From Lacrimispora celerecrescens (GTDB taxonomy: Bacteria; Bacillota; Clostridia; Lachnospirales; Lachnospiraceae): 64,000 nt of DNA. The notes below the pieces were generated by a model. That model saw only the letters and a list, made by a program, of their open reading frames with translations. It had not been told where the DNA came from and ran no database searches. The DNA lies in NCBI RefSeq assembly GCF_000732605.1, contig NZ_JPME01000012.1, forward strand, positions 186,001 through 250,000, in the 5' to 3' direction. Below are positions 12,143-22,534 of the stretch, piece by piece (the first letter of the stretch is position 1; every line of letters starts with the position of its first letter). Position numbers and translations under genes: made by a program.

Positions 12143-12174
12143 ATATAGGAAGAATGGCAGGAAAGGGAAGTGTT

Positions 12175-13146
12175 ATGGAAGAACGGATTTATCTTCTCCC
12201 CAAGGAGGGGAATTTTTATAAAGCGAATATGCACTGCCATACAACGGTTTCCGATGGAAAGCTGACACCCGAGCAGGTGAAAGAGGAGTATCAGAAAAAG
12301 GGATACCAGATCGTAGCCTATACGGATCACGGGAAATATTGCCCTCATCCGGAACTAAATTCAAAGGATTTTCTGGCACTGGCAGGCTTTGGAACCGATA
12401 GAAAGGAAGAAGGAACGTTTCATTTTAATTTCTATGACGGCAGTCCGGATGAGAGGAAGGAAGAGAAGGCAGAAGTTTGCAGTCCGGAGGCCTTAAATGA
12501 TGGCACTTCTGGCATCAATGCTTACATAAAGAAGATGAAGCAGCTGGGCTTTCTGGCAACTGCCTGCCATCCATACCGGTCCATGCAGAATTATAACGAT
12601 TATACAGGACTTTTAGGACTGTTTGCCATGGAAATTTATCATTACCGCAGCGACCTTGAAGGGTTGAACGGTTATAATCCCCAGGCCTACGATGAGATGC
12701 TGCGCTGCCATAAGGAAATTTACTGCCTGGCATCAGATGGCAATAAGAATGACTATCCTATGGAAGATCCGTTCAGTGATTCTTTTGGGGGTTTTATAAA
12801 GATCAAGGCAAGGGAGCTTACTTATCCAGCAGTGATGCAGGCCCTAAAAAAAGGTGATTTCTACAGCTCCATGGGTCCTGATATTCATTCCCTCTATATC
12901 GAAGGCAAGGACCTGGTTGTAAAGACTAGCCCTGTAGAGAAGATTTATATGAAAATGGAAGGCAAAAACTGCCGCATGAAAATTGCGCCGCAAGGGGAAT
13001 TATTGGAGGAGGCAAGGTTTCCTTTAACGGGGAGGGAAGGCTACATCCGTGTAGTCTGCCGCAGTGAAAACGGACTGTATGCTAACACGAATGCATATTT
13101 TCTGAAGGATCTGCCTTTAAAATCTATTACAGAGCAGGAGACATAA
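12175..13146 (+). CDS. PHP-domain protein with degenerate metal site
   Basis: A 323-residue PHP-superfamily protein (metal-dependent phosphoesterases). His20, His22 (NMHCHT) and Asp27 form the first metal motif, and YTDHGK the second. ATG 12175 is preferred over the in-frame ATG 12154 because MEERIYLLP then aligns with MNNRTYLLP of the second PHP protein and both become 323 residues. Against that paralogue (14437-15408), two presumed ligands are changed: the Glu after the TDH motif (AAVEVD there) is replaced here (AGFGTD), and the His in TDDNHN is replaced in SDGNKN. This copy may thus be impaired or regulatory. It lies three bases before the MFS gene. Confidence 0.82.
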   Translation: MEERIYLLPKEGNFYKANMHCHTTVSDGKLTPEQVKEEYQKKGYQIVAYTDHGKYCPHPELNSKDFLALAGFGTDRKEEGTFHFNFYDGSPDERKEEKAEVCSPEALNDGTSGINAYIKKMKQLGFLATACHPYRSMQNYNDYTGLLGLFAMEIYHYRSDLEGLNGYNPQAYDEMLRCHKEIYCLASDGNKNDYPMEDPFSDSFGGFIKIKARELTYPAVMQALKKGDFYSSMGPDIHSLYIEGKDLVVKTSPVEKIYMKMEGKNCRMKIAPQGELLEEARFPLTGREGYIRVVCRSENGLYANTNAYFLKDLPLKSITEQET

Positions 13147-13148
13147 GT

Positions 13149-14417
13149 TTGGACACAATGATACAACAGAAAAAGATCGGGTCAAAAAAAATGCAGTCCA
13201 TGCTGTTCTGGTTATGCTGGGCAGCTTATTTTTCTACATATCTTGGGAGGTTGAATTACTCGGCCTGCTTAACGGAAATCATCAGGGCAGAAGGCTATGA
13301 AAAGGGAGCGGCAGGTTTTATTGGAACTGCATTCTTTTTTTCTTATGGCGTTGGACAGCTTTTCAGCGGAATATTGGGAGATAAGAAAAAACCTTATAAG
13401 ATGATCTTTGCAGGGGTTCTGGGTTCAGGAATCTGCAATGGGGTAATGGGTCTGTCAGGATCCGTCTGGCAGATGGCGGTGGTATGGTGTGTCAATGGTC
13501 TGTTTCAGTCGCTGATCTGGTCACCGATCATTAAACTGTTTTCCGACTGGATTCCCACAAGCAGCCAGAAAAAATTCTGCGTCAACATTAATAGCAGCGT
13601 CCCCATCGGAACGTTTGCAGCATACGGACTGACGGCACTTATTGTATGGAAATTCCATTGGAGAACAGTATTTTTCTTCTCTTCCCTGTGTCTGGCAGCC
13701 ATCAGCCTGATTTGGTTCTTAGGCAGCCGCAAGATAAGAAAGGATTTGGAAGAAAATGGGGTTATAGAAGACCAGGTCCTTGTTTCACAGGATAAAAAAC
13801 AGGCAGATGCATCCATATGGGAATTAGTTCTGGTTTCCGGAATGATTTTCTTTTGCATTGGACTGATGTTTCAGGGAGTTTTAAAGGATGGAGTGACCAC
13901 CTGGATTCCAACCTATATCCGGGAAGAATATCATATGGAATCCGTAATTTCTATTATCAGCACCACGGTTATACCGATTTTTAACTTAAGCGGTGTTTAT
14001 CTGGCATCTATTGCTAACAGGAAGATTTTTAAAAGTGAGACAGCCACATCCGCTTCCTTTTTTGTCCTGTGCGCGGGTGCGCTGATTCTGTTACGGCTCT
14101 ATCATGGAGGATCCGTGGTAACCGTGCTGATCTTATTTGGCCTGGCAACCACGGCGATGATGGCGGTGAATACCATGCTGGTCAGCATGGTGCCCATCTA
14201 TTTCGCTCCTTACGGAAAATCATCCACTGCTTCCGGGATTTTAAATTCCTCCGCATATGCGGGAGGAGCGATCTCTGCCTATGGAATCGGAGTATTGTCT
14301 GAAAGGGCGGGCTGGGATACCACCATTATGATCTGGATTTTCATTGCCCTTTTGGGAGCAGTGGCATGCACGGCCGGTAAACCCCGGTGGAAGCGTTTTT
14401 TGCATAACGGTATATAA
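13149..14417 (+). CDS. MFS transporter, organophosphate:phosphate antiporter type
   Basis: A 422-residue, about 12-helix major facilitator. The N-terminal region (YFSTYLGRLNYSACLTEI, FFSYGVGQLFSGILGD) and the segment LFQSLIWSPIIKLFSDW resemble the GlpT/UhpT family, which exchanges phosphate for phosphorylated metabolites. The start is most likely TTG 13149, eight bases after AGGAG; ATG 13158 is badly spaced. It sits between two PHP-domain phosphoesterase-like genes with gaps of 2 and 19 bases. A natural reading is uptake of a phosphorylated compound that a PHP enzyme then dephosphorylates. The substrate is unknown. Confidence 0.82.
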   Translation: MDTMIQQKKIGSKKMQSMLFWLCWAAYFSTYLGRLNYSACLTEIIRAEGYEKGAAGFIGTAFFFSYGVGQLFSGILGDKKKPYKMIFAGVLGSGICNGVMGLSGSVWQMAVVWCVNGLFQSLIWSPIIKLFSDWIPTSSQKKFCVNINSSVPIGTFAAYGLTALIVWKFHWRTVFFFSSLCLAAISLIWFLGSRKIRKDLEENGVIEDQVLVSQDKKQADASIWELVLVSGMIFFCIGLMFQGVLKDGVTTWIPTYIREEYHMESVISIISTTVIPIFNLSGVYLASIANRKIFKSETATSASFFVLCAGALILLRLYHGGSVVTVLILFGLATTAMMAVNTMLVSMVPIYFAPYGKSSTASGILNSSAYAGGAISAYGIGVLSERAGWDTTIMIWIFIALLGAVACTAGKPRWKRFLHNGI

Positions 14418-14436
14418 GGGATGGGAGGAAAACAGG

Positions 14437-15408
14437 TTGAATAACAGAACTTATTTATTACCAGAGGCCGGAAGGTTTTATAAAGCGAACCTTCACAGCC
14501 ATACAGTCGTATCAGATGGAAGAATGACGCCGGAAGAGGCTAAGGAACACTATAAGAAGCACGGGTATCAGATTATGGCGTTTACGGATCACAGGATCTA
14601 CCGGAACCATGAAGAGTTAAACGATGAGGAATTCCTGGCACTTGCTGCGGTAGAGGTGGATATCAACGAGGTAAGTTCAGACAGGCTGCGCCCGGAGGAT
14701 AAGACATACCACATTAATTTGTATGATACCGCCCCCGGTTATGAGCGGGCCAGAAAAGAGCAGGGGATCTGTCCGGAACGCAGGTACGGAGACTTTGATT
14801 ATATTAACAGGTATTTAGAGGAGATGAAGGAACTGGGATTTCTTTCCTGCTATAACCATCCATACTGGTCCTTGCAGAACTACAACGATTACAAAGGCTT
14901 AAATGGGCTTTTTGCCATGGAAATCTACAATCACGGATGCGAGCTTGACGGATTGTACGGTTATAATCCCCAGTCTTATGATGAAATGCTTCGCTTGGGC
15001 AAGCGGTTATGGTGCCTGGCAACGGACGATAATCACAACAGTCATCCATTTGGTCATCCCCTGTGTGATTCTTTCGGAGGCTTTACCATGATAAAAGCGG
15101 AACGTCTAAGCTATGACGCAGTTATAAACGGGCTGGTAAACGGCCATTTCTACAGCTCCATGGGGCCTGAGATAAAGGAATTATATATAGAGGGCAGGGA
15201 GCTGGTAGTAAAGACCGGGCCGGTTAAAGCCATCTGCGGGATTACGGACAGTGGAAGATTCTGCCACAGAGCGGCTGTGAAGGGAGAACCCCTTACAGAA
15301 GCAAGGTTCCTTCTTAAAGGGAACGAAACCTATATCCGGGTGGAATGCAAGGATGAAAAGGGGCTTTTTGCTAACAGCAATGCCTATTTTCTCTCCGGCT
15401 TGGAGTGA
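14437..15408 (+). CDS. PHP-domain phosphoesterase-like protein (intact metal site)
   Basis: A 323-residue PHP protein, a close paralogue of the one at 12175. The start is TTG 14437, eight bases after GGGAGG; a longer in-frame ATG at 14344 would overlap the MFS gene by 74 bases and lacks a good site. It has all visible ligands: HSH and Asp near residues 20-27 (NLHSHTVVSDG), FTDHR, the Glu in AAVEVD, NHPYWS, and the DNH of TDDNHN. It should therefore be an active metal-dependent hydrolase, probably a phosphoesterase, acting in the cytoplasm. It closes the PHP-MFS-PHP operon and a terminator follows at 15461. Its substrate cannot be predicted. Confidence 0.85.
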   Translation: MNNRTYLLPEAGRFYKANLHSHTVVSDGRMTPEEAKEHYKKHGYQIMAFTDHRIYRNHEELNDEEFLALAAVEVDINEVSSDRLRPEDKTYHINLYDTAPGYERARKEQGICPERRYGDFDYINRYLEEMKELGFLSCYNHPYWSLQNYNDYKGLNGLFAMEIYNHGCELDGLYGYNPQSYDEMLRLGKRLWCLATDDNHNSHPFGHPLCDSFGGFTMIKAERLSYDAVINGLVNGHFYSSMGPEIKELYIEGRELVVKTGPVKAICGITDSGRFCHRAAVKGEPLTEARFLLKGNETYIRVECKDEKGLFANSNAYFLSGLE

Positions 15409-15500: not shown

Positions 15501-15570
15501 ATTTATCAGTCTTAATCCGACCTATTACGGCGAAAAAAGCATAGAAGTAAAAAAAGATTAAAATATATGC

Positions 15571-15610
15571 TTAGCTAACTATTGATTTTTCTTTTGGTAT
15601 GTGTTATATT
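15571..15610 (+). promoter_or_regulatory. osmC promoter with adjacent palindrome
   Basis: TTGATT (15582-15587) and TATATT (15605-15610) have a 17-base spacer. The perfect palindrome TTAGCTAA (15571-15578) lies just upstream of the -35 box, where a regulator such as the MarR protein encoded at 18847 could bind. That link is only a guess from position. Confidence 0.65.
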
Positions 15611-15650
15611 ATTAACAAGAAAAATAAACACTAAAAAAGGAGATGGTATT

Positions 15651-16091
15651 ATGTTGACTACATTTAAAGCAACAGCGAAAACACTGCCTGAGGGGTTACA
15701 GGTAGAAACAAATTCAAGAGGTTTTAAAATCCTTCTTGACGAGCCGGAAGATTTAGGTGGTACGGATACAGCTATGAACCCTGTGGAGGCCCTGTTATGT
15801 GCTCTGGGCGCATGCCAGTCCATCGTAGCGAAAGCATTTGCAGCTGCTCATGATATTACTTTTGAAGAATTCCATGTTGAATTGGAAGGTGACCTTGATC
15901 CGGACGGATTTATGGGACTGGCAGATGTAAGAAACGGTTTTCAGGAAATTCGTTTTGTAATGCATTTTAAAACAAACGAACCAAAAGAAAAAATTGAAGC
16001 GTTTGCAAAGTTTATCGAGAATACCTGCCCGGTTGGTGATTGTTTAACGAACGGTGTAAAACTAGTTTTATCCGGTGTTGCAATTGATTAA
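15651..16091 (+). CDS. OsmC/Ohr-family peroxidase-like protein
   Basis: A 146-residue OsmC-family protein. These proteins reduce organic hydroperoxides with a two-cysteine mechanism. The first cysteine is in ALGACQSIVA and the second in ENTCPVGDCL, a variant of the usual HxxCP motif, with an extra cysteine three residues later. ATG 15651 follows an AAGGAG site ten bases upstream; an upstream in-frame start lies inside the promoter. The gene has its own promoter and is separated from the lpd gene by a terminator hairpin. Ohr/OsmC enzymes are known to be re-reduced by dihydrolipoyl groups, which makes the downstream lipoyl dehydrogenase and lipoate ligase telling neighbours. Confidence 0.9.
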   Translation: MLTTFKATAKTLPEGLQVETNSRGFKILLDEPEDLGGTDTAMNPVEALLCALGACQSIVAKAFAAAHDITFEEFHVELEGDLDPDGFMGLADVRNGFQEIRFVMHFKTNEPKEKIEAFAKFIENTCPVGDCLTNGVKLVLSGVAID

Positions 16092-16104
16092 TAGTATAAA
16101 AAGC

Positions 16105-16138
16105 AAAAAGAGCCTATATTATAAAATTGGCTCTTTTT
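16105..16138 (+). terminator. Terminator between osmC and the lipoyl dehydrogenase gene
   Basis: AAAAAGAGCC (16105-16114) pairs perfectly with GGCTCTTTTT (16129-16138) around a 14-base loop. It lies between co-oriented genes with no clear promoter after it. It may work as a partial terminator that gives more osmC than lpd/lplA transcript. A similar signal is produced on the minus strand. Confidence 0.75.
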
Positions 16139-16159
16139 CTATAGAAAAGGAGAAAATTT

Positions 16160-17842
16160 ATGCTTATTAAAATGTCAATAATTCCTGGGGGGAAGATGGG
16201 CAAGGTAGGTAAAATAAATGTAAAAACAGGAGATAAGGTCACTGCCGGCGATATCCTTGTGCAAGTAGAAACAGCGAAGGGAAACCGCCAGATTAAAGCT
16301 ACATCAGATGGAACAGTTTGTAAAATATTATGTGAAGAGGGCATGGAGATTGCTTCGAATGCTGATATGTTTGAAATCTCCGAGGATTCTGTAGTCAAAG
16401 AGGCTGGAATATCAGATTGCGATTGTGCCTCACAGGGAACCGCTAAGGAAACCACTGCCGATTTACTTATCATAGGAGCTGGCCCCGGCGGATATGTAGC
16501 CGCTATTTATGCCGCAAAAAGCGGCCTGAAAGTCACTCTCGTTGAGCAATCAGCATTAGGCGGTACCTGCCTTAATGTGGGGTGCATTCCTACAAAGGCA
16601 CTTGTTAAATCAGCGGAAGTCTGCCACAATGTAATGAATGCATCAGTCTTTGGGATTGAATCCGGCAGTCCGGTTACAGTAAATATGAAACAAGTAATCG
16701 ACCGTAAAGATAAGATCAAGGACAGACTCGTTTCCGGAATTGATTTTCTTATGAAAAAGAATGAAATCAATGTAATTTCCGGCCAGGCATCATTTATGGA
16801 TAAAAATACGGTAACAGTAAAAGGCGAAGAAAATTATATCATAAAGGCAAAAAATATTATCGTTGCAACAGGCTCTAAAATCTCTAATATAGCCATTCCA
16901 GGCATAGATCTTCCGTTTGTGTTAAACAGCACAAAAGCGCTGTCTGATCAAGACCTTCCAAAATCCATAACCATTATTGGCGGTGGTGTAATCGGAATGG
17001 AATTTGCATTTATCTATAAAAACTTCGGCGTTGATGTCCATGTGATTGAATTTATGGATCGTTTGCTGACCATGGTAGACAGCGATATCTCAAAAGAAAT
17101 ACAGGATATAGCAGAAGAGAATAACATTCATATTCACACCGGTTCAAAGGTTAAGAAAATTCAGAGTTCCGTAGATGGTATGGCAGTTATTACCTATGAA
17201 AACAATGGTGGGGAACACCTAGTGGTAAGTGAAAAAGTATTGGTAGCTATTGGCAGGGAGCCGAATCTGGAAGGGTTGTCCATTGAAAAGAGCGGTGTCT
17301 TGTTAAACAGCAATGGGAAAGGGATTCAAGCAGATCATTCCATGCGTACAAACGTAGACAACATCTATGCTATTGGCGATGTGACAAATATCATTCAACT
17401 GGCCCACGTGGCTTCCCATCAGGGGATTGTTGCCGTAGAAAATATATTAGGAAAGCATAAAGAAATGAATTACTCAGCAGTCCCTAATGTAATATTTACT
17501 TCACCGGAAATCGCAAGTGTCGGGATCGGCGAAGACGAAGCAAAAAGCAAAGATATTGACATTGAAGTAAGTAAATTTTCCTTTGCCGGAAACGGAAAGG
17601 CTTTGACGATGAATGAGCCGAGAGGCTTTTTAAAACTGATTAAAAATATAAAAACAGGAAAAATAATAGGCGGGTCAGTCATAGGTGCTGATGCATCTTC
17701 ATTAATCAGCTCATTAACCTTAGCAATTGCCAATGGATTTACGGAGAAAGAAATCACTGAAACCATATTCCCACACCCTACTACCAGTGAAACGATTCAT
17801 GAAGCCGCACTGGATTTTGGAATTGGAGCCTTGCATCAATAA
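16160..17842 (+). CDS. lpdA: Dihydrolipoyl dehydrogenase with N-terminal lipoyl domain
   Basis: A 560-residue FAD enzyme that oxidises dihydrolipoyl groups with NAD+, or runs in reverse. Residues 1-75 form a biotinyl/lipoyl domain with the attachment lysine Lys40 in VETAKG. A short linker leads to the dehydrogenase with the FAD motif IIGAGPGGYVAA, the redox disulfide GGTCLNVGCIPTK, the second nucleotide-binding motif IIGGGVIGMEFA, AIGDV and the C-terminal HPTTSE with the catalytic His. No E1 or E2 dehydrogenase subunits are nearby. The stop overlaps the start of lplA by one base, so the enzyme that would lipoylate Lys40 is co-translated. Base composition is AT-rich relative to the hyd and cob genes. 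Confidence 0.93.
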   Translation: MLIKMSIIPGGKMGKVGKINVKTGDKVTAGDILVQVETAKGNRQIKATSDGTVCKILCEEGMEIASNADMFEISEDSVVKEAGISDCDCASQGTAKETTADLLIIGAGPGGYVAAIYAAKSGLKVTLVEQSALGGTCLNVGCIPTKALVKSAEVCHNVMNASVFGIESGSPVTVNMKQVIDRKDKIKDRLVSGIDFLMKKNEINVISGQASFMDKNTVTVKGEENYIIKAKNIIVATGSKISNIAIPGIDLPFVLNSTKALSDQDLPKSITIIGGGVIGMEFAFIYKNFGVDVHVIEFMDRLLTMVDSDISKEIQDIAEENNIHIHTGSKVKKIQSSVDGMAVITYENNGGEHLVVSEKVLVAIGREPNLEGLSIEKSGVLLNSNGKGIQADHSMRTNVDNIYAIGDVTNIIQLAHVASHQGIVAVENILGKHKEMNYSAVPNVIFTSPEIASVGIGEDEAKSKDIDIEVSKFSFAGNGKALTMNEPRGFLKLIKNIKTGKIIGGSVIGADASSLISSLTLAIANGFTEKEITETIFPHPTTSETIHEAALDFGIGALHQ

Positions 17843-18762
17843 TGAAAAAAATAGTAATATCCGAAGAATTTGATCCCTATTTTAATATCGCAGCAGAGCA
17901 TCAGCTATTTTTATCCTCTGAGGAAGATATTCATTTATTTCTATGGCAAAACGATTCTTCTGTGATTATAGGAAGAAACCAGAACCTATACGCAGAATGT
18001 GATTTGACTTACTTAAAGGAACATGGCATAAAAGCAGTCCGCAGGTTTTCCGGGGGCGGGGCAGTGTATCATGACAAAGGCAATGTTAATTTTACCTTTA
18101 TTACAAAAGAGGCATCAGCCAACCAGGACCATTTTATCAGGCTCATACAATCTGCCATGCAACGGCTTGGGATCGACTGTGAATTTAGCGGCAGAAATGA
18201 CTTATTATACAAAAACCGAAAATTTTCCGGTCATGCTTATTATACGGACGGCGATCATTTCATGTATCATGGTACGGTACTGGTCAATGTAAACTTTGAA
18301 CAGTTGGAACATGCCCTTACACCGTCCAAAATGAAGTTAAAGTCCAAAGGAGTCGAATCAGTAAGGAGCCGAGTCATAAATCTATCGGAAATAAACAGTG
18401 AAATCACTGCACAGTCAGTGATCCGGGCTTTTATGGAAGCCTTTGAATGCAACCATATGGAAATCATTAATAAAAAGAATTTTCAGCCGCCGTTAGAGAA
18501 TGTTCTTTCATCTGACAATTGGATGTTTGCCCAATCGCCTAAATTTGATGCCCAATTGGAACGCAACTATCCATTTGGAAATATGTCCGTATCTATCTCT
18601 ATCGCTGATGACCTGATTCAAAATGTGAAAATAAACACGGATAGCTTGAAGCTTTATGATTTTAAAACCTGTGAAAAAGGACTGCAGAATACCCACTTTA
18701 ACGAACAGGCGGTATGGGGTTATATCGAGCAGTACCTCTCAAATCATCTTGAATTTTCATAA
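17842..18762 (+). CDS. lplA: Lipoate-protein ligase
   Basis: A 306-residue lipoate-protein ligase A-type enzyme, which adenylates lipoate and attaches it to a lysine of a carrier domain. The family motif RRFSGGGAVYHDKGNVNFTF is intact, as are GRNQN near residue 50, the GRNDLLYKNRKFSGHAYY stretch and the HGTVLVN motif. It is a little shorter than E. coli LplA at the C-terminus. The ATG shares its first base with the TAA of the lpd gene. The most economical reading is that it lipoylates the lipoyl domain of the preceding protein, using scavenged lipoate. Confidence 0.93.
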   Translation: MKKIVISEEFDPYFNIAAEHQLFLSSEEDIHLFLWQNDSSVIIGRNQNLYAECDLTYLKEHGIKAVRRFSGGGAVYHDKGNVNFTFITKEASANQDHFIRLIQSAMQRLGIDCEFSGRNDLLYKNRKFSGHAYYTDGDHFMYHGTVLVNVNFEQLEHALTPSKMKLKSKGVESVRSRVINLSEINSEITAQSVIRAFMEAFECNHMEIINKKNFQPPLENVLSSDNWMFAQSPKFDAQLERNYPFGNMSVSISIADDLIQNVKINTDSLKLYDFKTCEKGLQNTHFNEQAVWGYIEQYLSNHLEFS

Positions 18763-18787
18763 TATCTGGAAAAGACTATGAAAAATA

Positions 18788-18816
18788 TTGTGCACTGGAT
18801 GGTTTTATGTTAATAT
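18788..18816 (+). promoter_or_regulatory. Promoter of the marR gene
   Basis: TTGTGC (18788-18793) and TAATAT (18811-18816) have a 17-base spacer, placing a start near 18823, about 24 bases before the chosen ATG. It gives the regulator a transcript separate from lpd-lplA. Confidence 0.5.
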
Positions 18817-18846
18817 ATGAAATAAAAAAATCAGATGGTGAATACT

Positions 18847-19281
18847 ATGTTTAATTTAGATGATTGCATCGCCTTTGTTACTTGTAAAGGGGCAAAAGAT
18901 TTAGCGGATTCCTTGGAAAAGAGACTGAATCATTATAATATAACAAGAAGTCAATGGATTGCATTGTATTATATTAAAAATAATAATATGATCACTCAAA
19001 AGCAGTTAGCCGATAAGATGTCTTTAAAAGAGCCTAGTGTTGTCAGGTTATTAGATAAAATGGAACTATATGGCTGGGTTAACCGCATCAGCAGCAATGA
19101 TGACAAAAGAATGAAGTTTTTAGCATTAACCGATAGCGGCAAAGAGATTGAAACAGCTATGCTGGATGTTGCAGAAAAATTTAAATCTGATGTACTTAAC
19201 GGCATATCACCGGAAGATTTGGATGTATTTAAAGCAACGCTTAACAAAATGCTTATAAACATTGAGGATGGTAACAAATAA
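18847..19281 (+). CDS. MarR-family transcriptional regulator
   Basis: A 144-residue winged-helix regulator of the MarR family. The recognition helix region is QLADKMSLKEPSVVRLLDKME, followed by the wing NRISSNDDKRMKFLALTDSG. I chose ATG 18847 because GGTGA lies six bases upstream; the in-frame ATG 18835 has no ribosome binding site. With this start, Cys7 and Cys13 lie in the first helix, close to where the redox-sensing cysteine of OhrR sits, although the alignment is not exact. OhrR-type MarR proteins repress ohr/osmC genes, so this one probably controls the upstream peroxidase module. That link is inferred from position and family. Confidence 0.88.
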   Translation: MFNLDDCIAFVTCKGAKDLADSLEKRLNHYNITRSQWIALYYIKNNNMITQKQLADKMSLKEPSVVRLLDKMELYGWVNRISSNDDKRMKFLALTDSGKEIETAMLDVAEKFKSDVLNGISPEDLDVFKATLNKMLINIEDGNK

Positions 19282-19481: not shown

Positions 19482-19733
19482 ATGGAGACGAGAATCGCCG
19501 TGATCGGCATCGTTGTGGAAGAGGAAGAATCTGTGGAACTGCTGAATGAGATCCTGCATGAATACCGCAAGTATATCATTGGCCGCATGGGGATCCCCTA
19601 TCCGAAAAAGCAGGTAAGCATCATAAGCATAGCTGTGGATGCACCTCAAAGCATCATATCCGCAATGACCGGTAAGATCGGGAAATTAAAGGGAGTCAGC
19701 TCCAAGACGGCCTATCAGGGCGTGAAGATTTAA
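19482..19733 (+). CDS. TM1266-type regulator linked to [FeFe] hydrogenase maturation
   Basis: An 83-residue ferredoxin-like-fold protein of the TM1266 family, annotated in many anaerobes as an iron-only hydrogenase system regulator. The start METRIAVIGIVVEE, the central HEYRKYIIGRMGIPY and SIISIAVDAPQSIISAMTGKIGKL are typical. GGAGG lies before the ATG. It resembles NikR C-terminal-like or ACT-type regulatory folds and has no DNA-binding domain of its own. It precedes hydG by 104 bases and should be co-transcribed. Its biochemical role is not established. Confidence 0.85.
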   Translation: METRIAVIGIVVEEEESVELLNEILHEYRKYIIGRMGIPYPKKQVSIISIAVDAPQSIISAMTGKIGKLKGVSSKTAYQGVKI

Positions 19734-19837
19734 GAAGGATAAGAAAAGAAACAGCTGTTTCAAGGGCAATTGCCTGTGAAATTAATAAACCACTGACGGA
19801 AAAGCAAATGCTGACCCTAAAGAAAGGAAGAATTACT

Positions 19838-21253
19838 ATGTATGATCCAAAATCGCTGAAAGCGGAAGAATTCATTTCCCACGAAGAAATTCTTGAAACT
19901 CTTGATTATGCGAAAAAAAACAAAGACAATGTAGAACTGATTGACCAGATTATTGCAAAGGCTAGGCTGGCAAAAGGTCTGACTCACCGGGAGGCATCTG
20001 TCCTCCTTGCCTGTGATATTCCGGAAAAAATTCAGGAAATCTATGATCTGGCAGAGCAGATTAAAAAGGATTTCTACGGAAGCCGCATCGTCATGTTTGC
20101 CCCTCTTTATCTTTCTAACTACTGCGTAAATGGCTGTACCTACTGTCCATACCACTTAAAAAACAAGCACATTGCCAGGAAAAAACTCTCCCTGGAAGAA
20201 GTGGAGAAGGAAGTCATCGCCCTTCAGGATATGGGACATAAACGGCTTGCCATTGAAGCAGGTGAGGATCCTGTAAATAATCCCATCGAATACATTCTGG
20301 ATTGCGTCAAAACCATATATTCCATCAAACACAAAAACGGCGCCATCCGCCGGGTCAATATAAACATAGCTGCAACCACGGTAGAGAATTACCGGAAGCT
20401 GAAAGAGGCGGAGATTGGAACCTATATTCTCTTTCAGGAAACCTATCATAAGGAAAGCTACGAAAAGCTTCATCCAACAGGCCCCAAGCACGACTATTCC
20501 TACCATACCGAGGCCATGGACCGAGCCATGGAGGGCGGAATTGATGACGTAGGCCTTGGCGTACTTTTTGGTCTGGAGCTGTACCAGTATGAATTTGCAG
20601 GACTTTTGATGCATGCGGAGCATCTGGAGGCAGTTCATGGTGTAGGACCTCATACCATTAGCGTTCCCCGTATCAAAAAAGCCGATGACATTGATCCCGA
20701 TGCCTTTGACAATGGGATTGATGACGAAATCTTTGCAAAGCTTTGTGCACTAATCCGGATTTCGGTTCCTTATACGGGAATGATCGTTTCCACCAGGGAA
20801 AGTCAGAAGGTAAGAGAACAGGTGATCCGCCTGGGGGTATCCCAGATCAGCGGCGGTTCCAGAACCAGCGTGGGCGGCTACCAGGAAGATATCCGTCCTA
20901 CGGATACAGAGCAGTTTGACGTATCGGATCAGCGTTCCCTGGATGAGGTGGTCCACTGGCTCATGGATATGGGCTATATTCCTTCCTTCTGCACAGCGTG
21001 CTACCGGGAAGGGCGTACGGGAGACCGATTTATGAGTCTTTGCAAAAGCGGTCAGATCCAGAACTGCTGTCAGCCCAATGCCTTAATGACATTAAAAGAA
21101 TATTTGATGGATTACGCTTCCGAAGATACGAGAAAAGTCGGTGAGGCATTGATCGCAGCGGAGCTAAACCATATTCCAAAGGAAAAGGTACGTCTGATCT
21201 GTGAAGACCATTTGCAAAAAATAGAAAATGGAATCAGGGATTTCCGTTTCTGA
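19838..21253 (+). CDS. hydG: [FeFe] hydrogenase H-cluster radical SAM maturase HydG
   Basis: A 471-residue tyrosine lyase. HydG cleaves tyrosine to p-cresol and supplies CO and cyanide as an iron synthon for the H-cluster. The radical SAM cluster motif CVNGCTYC places Cys96, Cys100 and Cys103, the same numbering as in well-studied HydG. The auxiliary cluster motif CX2CX22C is seen near the C-terminus (FCTACYREG...QNCC). AAGGAAG precedes ATG 19838; a longer frame from 19808 has no better start. hydF follows; hydE is not in the window. Confidence 0.96.
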   Translation: MYDPKSLKAEEFISHEEILETLDYAKKNKDNVELIDQIIAKARLAKGLTHREASVLLACDIPEKIQEIYDLAEQIKKDFYGSRIVMFAPLYLSNYCVNGCTYCPYHLKNKHIARKKLSLEEVEKEVIALQDMGHKRLAIEAGEDPVNNPIEYILDCVKTIYSIKHKNGAIRRVNINIAATTVENYRKLKEAEIGTYILFQETYHKESYEKLHPTGPKHDYSYHTEAMDRAMEGGIDDVGLGVLFGLELYQYEFAGLLMHAEHLEAVHGVGPHTISVPRIKKADDIDPDAFDNGIDDEIFAKLCALIRISVPYTGMIVSTRESQKVREQVIRLGVSQISGGSRTSVGGYQEDIRPTDTEQFDVSDQRSLDEVVHWLMDMGYIPSFCTACYREGRTGDRFMSLCKSGQIQNCCQPNALMTLKEYLMDYASEDTRKVGEALIAAELNHIPKEKVRLICEDHLQKIENGIRDFRF

Positions 21254-21266
21254 TCCAGCTGCAGAT

Positions 21267-21300
21267 GCCAAAGTCAGGCTGGCTTGACTTTGGCTCTTTG
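21267..21300 (+). terminator. Hairpin between hydG and hydF
   Basis: GCCAAAGTCA (21267-21276) pairs perfectly with TGACTTTGGC (21285-21294) around an eight-base loop, followed by TCTTTG. The T tract is weak, so partial termination or mRNA processing between the two maturase genes is likely. Confidence 0.6.
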
Positions 21301-21337
21301 CCATTGCGTAAAGAAATAGTAGGAAGAGGTGACAGAC

Positions 21338-22534
21338 ATGGGACTTAATGATACACCATCCTCTGAGCGGGTGCACATTGGCTTTTTCGGCCGCCGCAAT
21401 GCAGGAAAATCAAGTGTTGTCAATGCAGTGACAGGGCAGGAACTGTCCGTTGTATCGGAAGTAAAAGGTACTACCACAGATCCTGTTTATAAATCCATGG
21501 AGCTTCTCCCCATGGGACCGGTGGTTATTATTGATACGCCGGGCTTTGACGATGAAGGCGCTCTGGGAGAGATGCGGGTAAGGAAGACAAAGCAGATATT
21601 AAACCGGGCCGATTGTGCGGTCTTAGTTGTGGATGGGGCCGTTGGAAAGACAAAAACGGATGAAGAATTGATCCTTCTGTTTAAGGAAAAGAAGATCCCC
21701 TATGTGGTTGCTTATAATAAATGTGATTTAACCGGGCCACTAAACTATGACGACGGACTTTCTGTCAGCGCATCAGAAGGTCTGTTCATCCATGAATTAA
21801 AAGAACGGATCGGCAGTCTTGTAAACACCGGGGATACAAAAATGAGGATTGTAGGAGATTTGCTGAATCCGTACGACCTGGTGGTCCTGGTGATCCCCAT
21901 TGATGAGGCAGCACCAAAGGGCCGCCTCATCCTGCCCCAGCAGCAGGTGATCCGGGATATTCTGGAGGCCGGTGCCATATCAGTGGCAGTGCGTGATACG
22001 GAGTTAAAGGAGACCCTGGAACGGTTGGGGACCAGACCGGCCCTTGTCATTACGGACAGCCAGGCCTTTGAGCAGGTAAGTAGGGATACGCCGGAAGAGA
22101 TTCTTCTCACATCCTTTTCCATCCTGCTGGCCAGGTATAAGGGCTTTTTAGAGGAGGCCGTGAAAGGAGTGGCTGCCATCGGGGATTTAGAAGATGGGGA
22201 TAAAATCCTGATCTCCGAGGGGTGTACCCATCACAGGCAGTGCGATGACATTGGAACCGTAAAGCTTCCCCGCTGGCTTCGGCAGCATACGGGGAAAGAG
22301 CTCCTCATAGAGACTTCCTCCGGACGGGAATTTCCGGAAGACTTGTCAGCCTATAAGCTGATCATCCACTGCGGCGGCTGTATGTTAAATGAAAGGGAAA
22401 TGGAATACCGGGGAAAGTGTGCGGCGGATGCGAAGGTACCATTTACCAATTATGGAATTGCGATTGCTTATATGAAGGGGATTTTAAAAAGGAGCATAAA
22501 ACCGCTTCCTGATTTGGAAGAGCTGCTGCCTTAA
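21338..22534 (+). CDS. hydF: [FeFe] hydrogenase maturation GTPase HydF
   Basis: A 398-residue scaffold GTPase that assembles the diiron subcluster and delivers it to hydrogenase. The N-terminal G domain has the P loop GRRNAGKSS, switch TTTDPV, DTPGF and NKCD. The C-terminal domain has the [4Fe-4S] ligands: CTHHRQC early and HCGGC late, matching the family pattern CxH...HCxxC. ATG 21338 has AGAGGTG six bases upstream; the in-frame GTG at 21329 would overlap that site. It ends the hyd cluster before the riboswitch-like leader at 22613. Confidence 0.95.
   Translation: MGLNDTPSSERVHIGFFGRRNAGKSSVVNAVTGQELSVVSEVKGTTTDPVYKSMELLPMGPVVIIDTPGFDDEGALGEMRVRKTKQILNRADCAVLVVDGAVGKTKTDEELILLFKEKKIPYVVAYNKCDLTGPLNYDDGLSVSASEGLFIHELKERIGSLVNTGDTKMRIVGDLLNPYDLVVLVIPIDEAAPKGRLILPQQQVIRDILEAGAISVAVRDTELKETLERLGTRPALVITDSQAFEQVSRDTPEEILLTSFSILLARYKGFLEEAVKGVAAIGDLEDGDKILISEGCTHHRQCDDIGTVKLPRWLRQHTGKELLIETSSGREFPEDLSAYKLIIHCGGCMLNEREMEYRGKCAADAKVPFTNYGIAIAYMKGILKRSIKPLPDLEELLP

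Follow-up and report, generated by a model that had tools for sequence, protein, structure and literature searches.

A recurrent cassette of genes for an OsmC-fold protein, a lipoyl-fused dihydrolipoyl dehydrogenase, LplA and a MarR regulator in Lacrimispora celerecrescens and distant bacteria

Layout and distribution of the cassette

We analyzed a 64,000-nucleotide stretch of Lacrimispora celerecrescens DNA (NZ_JPME01000012.1, positions 186,001 to 250,000; hereafter the window), taken from contig 12 of a genome of 5.0 Mb and 99% completeness. An earlier note on the window had described four genes in a row, encoding an OsmC-fold protein, a dihydrolipoyl dehydrogenase (Lpd) with its own lipoyl domain, a lipoate-protein ligase (LplA) and a MarR-family protein. 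All four open reading frames (ORFs) are present in that order at the coordinates below. Both OsmC cysteines, Lys40 of the Lpd and the overlap of the lplA ATG with the lpd stop, which share one base (TAATG at 17840-17844), are likewise seen in the sequence. 2-oxoacid dehydrogenase genes, which the note had described as absent from the row, were not found among the window neighbours scanned with Pfam. Comparison with relatives indicates that the four genes are a bounded, self-contained redox cassette and that their linkage is real. The features are as follows:

15568..15585, + strand: predicted MarR operator TGCTTAGCTAACTATTGA, with palindromic core TACTTAGCTAAsTA, extending into the -35 box; predicted from conservation upstream of osmC
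15582..15610, + strand: sigma-70-like osmC promoter TTGATT-17-TATATT; consensus match of 9/12 only
15651..16091, + strand: OsmC-fold protein, 146 aa (ATG at 15651; PF02566), with Cys55 and Cys126; the D30-E31-P32 and NPVE motifs mark its subfamily
16102..16140, + strand: terminator-like hairpin between osmC and lpd, a possible attenuator, from folding energy and recurrence in relatives
16160..17842, + strand: Lpd, 560 aa (TIGR01350, PF00364), with an N-terminal lipoyl domain (about 1-76, Lys40), a flexible linker (77-93) and a FAD/NAD core (about 98-553)
17842..18762, + strand: LplA, 306 aa, with a C-terminal accessory domain (TIGR00545, PF10437)
18835..19281, + strand: MarR-family regulator, 148 aa (PF01047), with a conserved Cys11

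The conserved adjacency that the note had predicted was borne out in a set of 89 OsmC proteins, comprising 80 of the 102 loci from a named-species scan, the window and eight further stretches; locus L113 was dropped as it represents the same place as L028. Genes were assigned to the cassette by a same-strand tblastn match of more than 30% identity within 3.5 kb. By this definition Lpd stands beside OsmC in 38 of the 89 loci: 23 have the lipoyl domain, LplA and MarR, nine are without LplA and six are partial. L031 ends at a contig edge inside lpd, and L038 and L064 give no match to the window lipoyl domain, L064 having a lipoyl domain by Pfam. In the OsmC tree, Lpd is adjacent in 37 of the 50 proteins that make up a single clade with support 99/94, versus one of the 39 outside it (L064); the bootstrap of this tree was not fully settled, and outside the main clade its long branches come together.

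Cassette carriers belong to the Lachnospiraceae, Bacilli, Spirochaetes and other groups and have different flanks, and the same genes stand in the same order in distant genomes, with osmC preceding lpd in many taxa. When all ORFs were clustered, the four largest families were OsmC, Lpd, MarR and LplA; the fifth, found in 14 loci (four of them cassette loci), consists by eye of ABC-type ATPases that do not adjoin the cassette. The setting in an anaerobe, as the note had it, proved too narrow: Bacilli including Paenibacillus and Virgibacillus carry the cassette too, mostly without LplA. Among 200 family genomes drawn evenly, three match the window OsmC, namely its own and two at 36-42% identity. 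Within the genus a match was found in nine of 25 genomes, eight at 89-100% identity and one (G215, dropped) at 28% with three stops.

Pairwise distances between the cassette proteins are correlated for Lpd-LplA (r = 0.94, 20 loci), Lpd-MarR (0.90, 25 loci), LplA-MarR (0.90, 17 loci), MarR-OsmC (0.82, 28 loci), Lpd-OsmC (0.79, 29 loci) and LplA-OsmC (0.79, 21 loci), with a Mantel p of 0.001 for each of the six pairs; L064, L037 and four near-identical genus rows were omitted. Because shared descent of whole cassettes suffices for such correlation, it implies that the genes travel together and not that their products interact. Recurring order, clade-bound linkage and co-divergence together rule out chance adjacency of the four genes. 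The distribution and the changing flanks, rather than a search aimed at mobile elements, suggest that the cassette is mobile and horizontally spread. Paenibacillus oralis carries two copies (L034 and L037), separated by about 0.7 Mb within one record, whose OsmC proteins are identical.

Other layouts were also observed. In Thermoanaerobacter (L064), outside the main clade, LplA, a different lipoyl-Lpd and OsmC occur in another order (LplA-lipoylLpd-OsmC), and in its near relative Caldanaerobacter (L063, 5569-6435) a CMD/AhpD-like gene occupies the place of Lpd, between lplA and osmC; a neighbouring OsmC line has thus been paired with lipoyl-side proteins in two other arrangements. Paenibacillus terrae and P. 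albidus (L044, 2161-8712, and L047) have a second OsmC, 34% identical, just upstream of the cassette, and slightly further upstream a CMD-family protein, for which Pfam gives two CMD stretches in L044.

Directly downstream of the window cassette (19482-22534) lie genes for a TM1266-type hydrogenase regulator, HydG and HydF, that is [FeFe] hydrogenase maturation genes. On its other side (12154-15408), a membrane protein with the look of an MFS transporter, as judged by eye, stands between two similar PHP/CehA-McbA-like metallohydrolases (one of the two was searched against profile libraries), a pair that is kept in four genus relatives. The CehA-like and TM1266/HydG flanks are common to five genus members (the window, G204, G216, G218 and G219) and were not found within 19 kb of the cassette in G206, G207 and G217.

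The cassette proteins and the clients of LplA

The window OsmC scores 77.8 bits against PF02566 (cut-off 27.5) and is the sole match to this family in its genome. Its predicted model (pLDDT 95.9) matches the Ohr/OsmC fold by Foldseek and VIA-align, and Cys55 and Cys126 are invariant in the alignment of all 89 relatives. The best NCBIfam family is NF041052, OsmC-related (seleno)protein, at 70.2 bits, under its cut-off of 95; this family is matched by 57/57 members scanned, and Ohr or peroxiredoxin models give weak matches in up to 44 of these 57.

The window Lpd scores 535 bits against TIGR01350 (cut-off 408.8), and residues 14-73 match the PF00364 lipoyl domain at 40.9 bits (cut-off 22.1). Its redox pair Cys137/Cys142 is invariant in 27/27 sequences, and the lipoyl Lys40 in 35/35, within ETAKGN in the window and an ETxKGN-like motif in most. 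In a model built from a 27-sequence alignment (mean pLDDT 88.2), the lipoyl domain, with values in the eighties, is joined to the Lpd core by a linker (77-93) below 50. A folded lipoyl domain on such a low-confidence linker would fit the needs of a swinging arm. Several relatives depart from this architecture: two tandem lipoyl-domain matches stand at the Lpd start in Paenibacillus maysiensis (L054, 1796-2296) and in an Erysipelotrichaceae metagenome-assembled genome (L062, 781-1242), the Lpd frame is interrupted in L032 and L038, and the L040 Lpd is a single open frame of 662 codons, in which about 100 inserted codons separate the two matched stretches.

The window LplA matches TIGR00545 (307.7 bits, cut-off 280) and PF10437 (41.5, cut-off 24), and the note had proposed that it loads the fused domain, which would serve as the dedicated carrier. 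Three PF00364 domains were found in its genome, that of the cassette Lpd and two of biotin type (MKM or MKL), so no lipoyl E2 was found there by this search, which did not include a direct search for the E2 catalytic domain. The only GcvH above cut-off lies within a gcvT-gcvH-gcvPA-gcvPB-lplA-lpd run on contig 44 (gcvT, gcvPA and gcvPB were named by inspection of the sequences), and a third Lpd above cut-off, on contig 10, has no recognisable lipoyl gene beside it. Because the gcv run has a separate lplA and lpd, the cassette Lpd and LplA were rejected as glycine-cleavage parts, and the note's own counter-argument, an Lpd serving a complex encoded elsewhere, found no footing in this genome.

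This analysis was extended to 53 genomes searched with PF00364 and PF01597, nine of them with every match in view. Among the matches listed, six genomes (G217, G225, G235, G240, G251 and G255) show no lipoyl-type domain besides that of the cassette Lpd; their other PF00364 matches were judged by eye to be biotin-type or HlyD-like adaptors, and GcvH is either absent or matched by biotin-type proteins only. The argument is carried by G235, in which the cassette Lpd is the single PF00364 match of the whole genome, and by G217, which is 100% complete. To the models used, no other client of the linked LplA is visible in these six genomes, which argues for the roles that the note gave to LplA and to the fused domain.

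LipA, searched with TIGR00510 as the one lipoyl synthase model, gave no match in the window organism. With the same model, and with kinship between genomes ignored, LipA scored above cut-off in two of 21 genomes whose cassette contains LplA versus five of nine whose cassette lacks it, a distribution that leans toward LplA being kept where lipoate is scavenged.

Control signals around osmC

The note had further placed the cassette under the control of the MarR protein, and a shared predicted operator at the osmC promoter favours this proposal. Immediately beside the osmC -35 box lies a palindrome of 14 bases, TACTTAGCTAAsTA. It is found with at least 11/14 matches in 33 of the 35 MarR-linked loci, L062 and L071 being the two exceptions; in Markov-shuffled sequence this score was reached in a mean of 2.0 loci, the highest being seven in 50 rounds. 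Only three of 54 loci without detected MarR have it, namely L059 and two loci (L031 and L056) in which the contig stops short of where marR would lie. In the window its core, TTAGCTAA, begins at position 15571, and within the host genome the osmC operator is the only site at up to two mismatches. Across the 25 genus genomes, a site with zero or one mismatch occurs once in each of the eight cassette genomes, at osmC, and in 0/17 others, while seven sites with two mismatches are no commoner than those of a reversed control pattern. An identical two-mismatch site, TAATTAGCTAACTATTAA, was seen in five cassette-less genus members (G205, G211, G213, G220 and G223; L159, L162, L163, L168 and L169); it may have arisen by chance or belong to a different MarR protein. 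The operator core also resembles half-sites of the SlyA consensus, TTAGCAAGCTAA. A further dyad, GTTATATTATTAAC, is weaker and overlaps the osmC -10 box.

The two cysteines near the N-terminus of the window MarR, to which the note had drawn attention, fared differently. Cys11 is conserved: of 33 aligned proteins 32 have it, and the remaining row starts late. Position 17, in contrast, is Cys, Ser or Asn in other rows and is not conserved. As judged from the end coordinates of the alignment to 1z91 alone, Cys11 lies about two residues before Cys15, the N-terminal sensing cysteine of Bacillus subtilis OhrR. The window MarR matches PF01047, with SlyA as its best NCBIfam model (71.7 bits, under the cut-off of 120). 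Its identification as OhrR, suggested in the note, did not stand against the curated model NF052638 (49.6 versus a cut-off of 200); this model is named for Vibrio, so the failed score weighs little for other OhrR proteins.

The osmC promoter is a consensus match only, and shuffled sequence yields promoter-like matches at least as often as the region does; a similar layout upstream of osmC was read by eye in relatives. Downstream of osmC, the hairpin at 16102-16140 has a folding energy of -13.3 kcal/mol (z -3.69) and a T-rich tail. By a home-made pattern, a hairpin between osmC and lpd recurs in 25 of the 38 Lpd-linked loci versus a mean of 1.1 in 10 Markov rounds; the window hairpin was absent from the output of a consensus terminator scan with loops limited to 8. 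Its location suggests OsmC output above that of the reductase.

Proposed electron route, alternatives and known systems

We consider it probable that the locus is a horizontally spread, self-regulated cassette in which electrons would pass from NADH through Lpd and its lipoyl group to OsmC, a route that the sequence comparisons support well. More specifically, LplA would load Lys40, in the N-terminal Lpd domain, with scavenged lipoate, and NADH would reduce the FAD and the Cys137-Cys142 pair and, through these, the lipoyl arm of the same polypeptide. The flexibly linked arm would then reduce the Cys55-Cys126 disulfide of OsmC, which in turn would reduce an oxidant, most likely organic hydroperoxides; this substrate is the least certain link of the route. 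The MarR protein would repress osmC, and probably the whole cassette, by binding at the conserved palindrome at the -35 box, and would be released by an oxidant or electrophile acting through Cys11, while the hairpin 3' of osmC would hold OsmC in excess over its reductase.

Several observations weigh against this route. The catalytic glutamate of Ohr/OsmC enzymes, ten residues before the peroxidatic cysteine (Glu51 and Cys61 in XfOhr), is absent from the window OsmC, where Val45 takes its place; valine is found here in 86 of the 89 proteins, and glutamate aligns at this position in three plasmid Ohr proteins and E. coli OsmC. No arginine of the window OsmC aligns at the Ohr-loop place or at that of the OsmC Gly-rich loop, Arg23 (conserved in 87/89) being at a place other than that of the catalytic Arg. 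With both triad partners missing, the assignment to the Ohr/OsmC-type peroxidases made in the note is not supported at the catalytic positions, and 'peroxidase' is a label that we can only infer for this protein. The YhfA subfamily is also without this Arg and Glu, and no activity is established for it (PMC8945050, PMC5962072 and PMC4069020). Moreover, Lpd is not adjacent in 51 of the 89 OsmC loci, and 13 of these belong to the clade of 50. Peptostreptococcus russellii (G250; L147, 912-1241) encodes, besides its cassette, a free-standing E2-type domain of 109 residues, with acetoin dehydrogenase E2 as best NCBIfam match and a lysine near the expected place, and was therefore not counted among the sole-client genomes, five of which (all but G217) have no stated completeness. 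LipA is missing, by TIGR00510, also from four of the nine genomes with an LplA-less cassette. In the genus, GcvH is above cut-off in seven of eight cassette genomes versus 0/12 cassette-less genomes tested, so that lipoate use and the cassette co-occur there, but confounded by descent.

The missing triad partners bear most directly on the substrate. The electron route could be the same if OsmC acted not on a hydroperoxide but on an electrophile, on sulfane sulfur or a persulfide, or on the disulfide of a protein or small molecule; the MarR protein would then sense that compound. Many carriers come from anaerobic groups, the MarR protein is not OhrR by the curated model, and sulfane sulfur can be sensed by MarR proteins including OhrR (PMC11211675). 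OsmC nevertheless shares the Ohr/OsmC fold and both cysteines, and the weak Ohr and peroxiredoxin matches point the same way; we regard a different target as rather unlikely.

The two remaining alternatives both appear very improbable. One is that Lpd and LplA work for glycine cleavage or a 2-oxoacid dehydrogenase, salvaging lipoate or acting as a spare E3, and that OsmC is adjacent by accident. This would account for the joint presence of cassette and GcvH in the genus and for the separate E2-type domain of P. russellii, and lipoyl-fused Lpds elsewhere do serve such complexes (for example 5u25, by its title). The separate lplA and lpd of the glycine-cleavage run, the six cassette genomes in which neither GcvH nor another E2-type domain was found, and the position of osmC ahead of lpd in many taxa all speak against it. 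A canonical ohr-ohrR pair was ruled out by the OsmC residues and by a MarR score under the OhrR cut-off, and these same two results tell against an ordinary ohrR-ohr pair with two lipoate genes added, an idea that finds some encouragement in L049 and L053, where OsmC-MarR pairs with the operator have no Lpd or LplA beside them.

Beyond the NADH-Lpd-lipoyl-OsmC route itself, it is possible, and we advance it tentatively from the sequence comparisons, that the cassette is a mobile defence module not described before, in which the only role of lipoic acid would be that of redox arm in a stress reductase, OsmC would represent a subfamily with a rebuilt active site, reduced by an Lpd with a lipoyl domain of its own, and some organisms would scavenge lipoate for this purpose alone. 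If true, lipoate would have a dedicated job outside carbon metabolism, and there would be an explanation for lipoate scavenging by bacteria that show no lipoylated dehydrogenase. The cassette offers a small protein system for direct study of an uncharacterised OsmC subfamily, including its substrate, electron route and regulation, and with the conserved operator the inducer should be easy to find by means of a reporter.

Ohr/OsmC lipoyl-dependent peroxidases, reportedly re-reduced by Lpd and lipoylated E2 (work attributed to Cussiol et al. 2010, J Biol Chem), resemble the cassette in their OsmC fold, two cysteines and use of Lpd and lipoyl as electron source; they differ in having the catalytic Arg and Glu, both of which the cassette OsmC lacks. 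In the Trichomonas hydrogenosome, OsmC is said to be served by proteins of an incomplete glycine decarboxylase (Nyvltova et al. 2016, by title, as cited in PMC10332631), a eukaryotic system unlike the bacterial cassette. The lipoyl-fused Lpd 5u25, from Neisseria, has an N-terminal lipoyl domain and Lpd core like the window Lpd, but is titled as E3 of pyruvate and 2-oxoglutarate dehydrogenase, and no such complex was found in the window organism. The OsmC-like GSU2788 of Geobacter (PDB 2opl, with no function stated) is 28% identical to the window OsmC. Ohr and OsmC are described as re-reduced by lipoylated proteins and Lpd (PMC8945050), and the lipoyl proteins named there are 2-oxoacid dehydrogenase subunits, whereas the lipoyl domain of the cassette forms part of Lpd itself and is encoded beside its ligase and regulator. 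In Corynebacterium, AhpD is given as a lipoyl-linked reductase of OsmC (PMC8945050); an AhpD-like CMD protein occurs in Caldanaerobacter and none in the window cassette. No description of the cassette appeared among the titles listed by searches of open-licence literature: lipoyl-dependent reduction of Ohr/OsmC proteins is known, and what seems to be new is the fused, self-supplied and self-regulated cassette.

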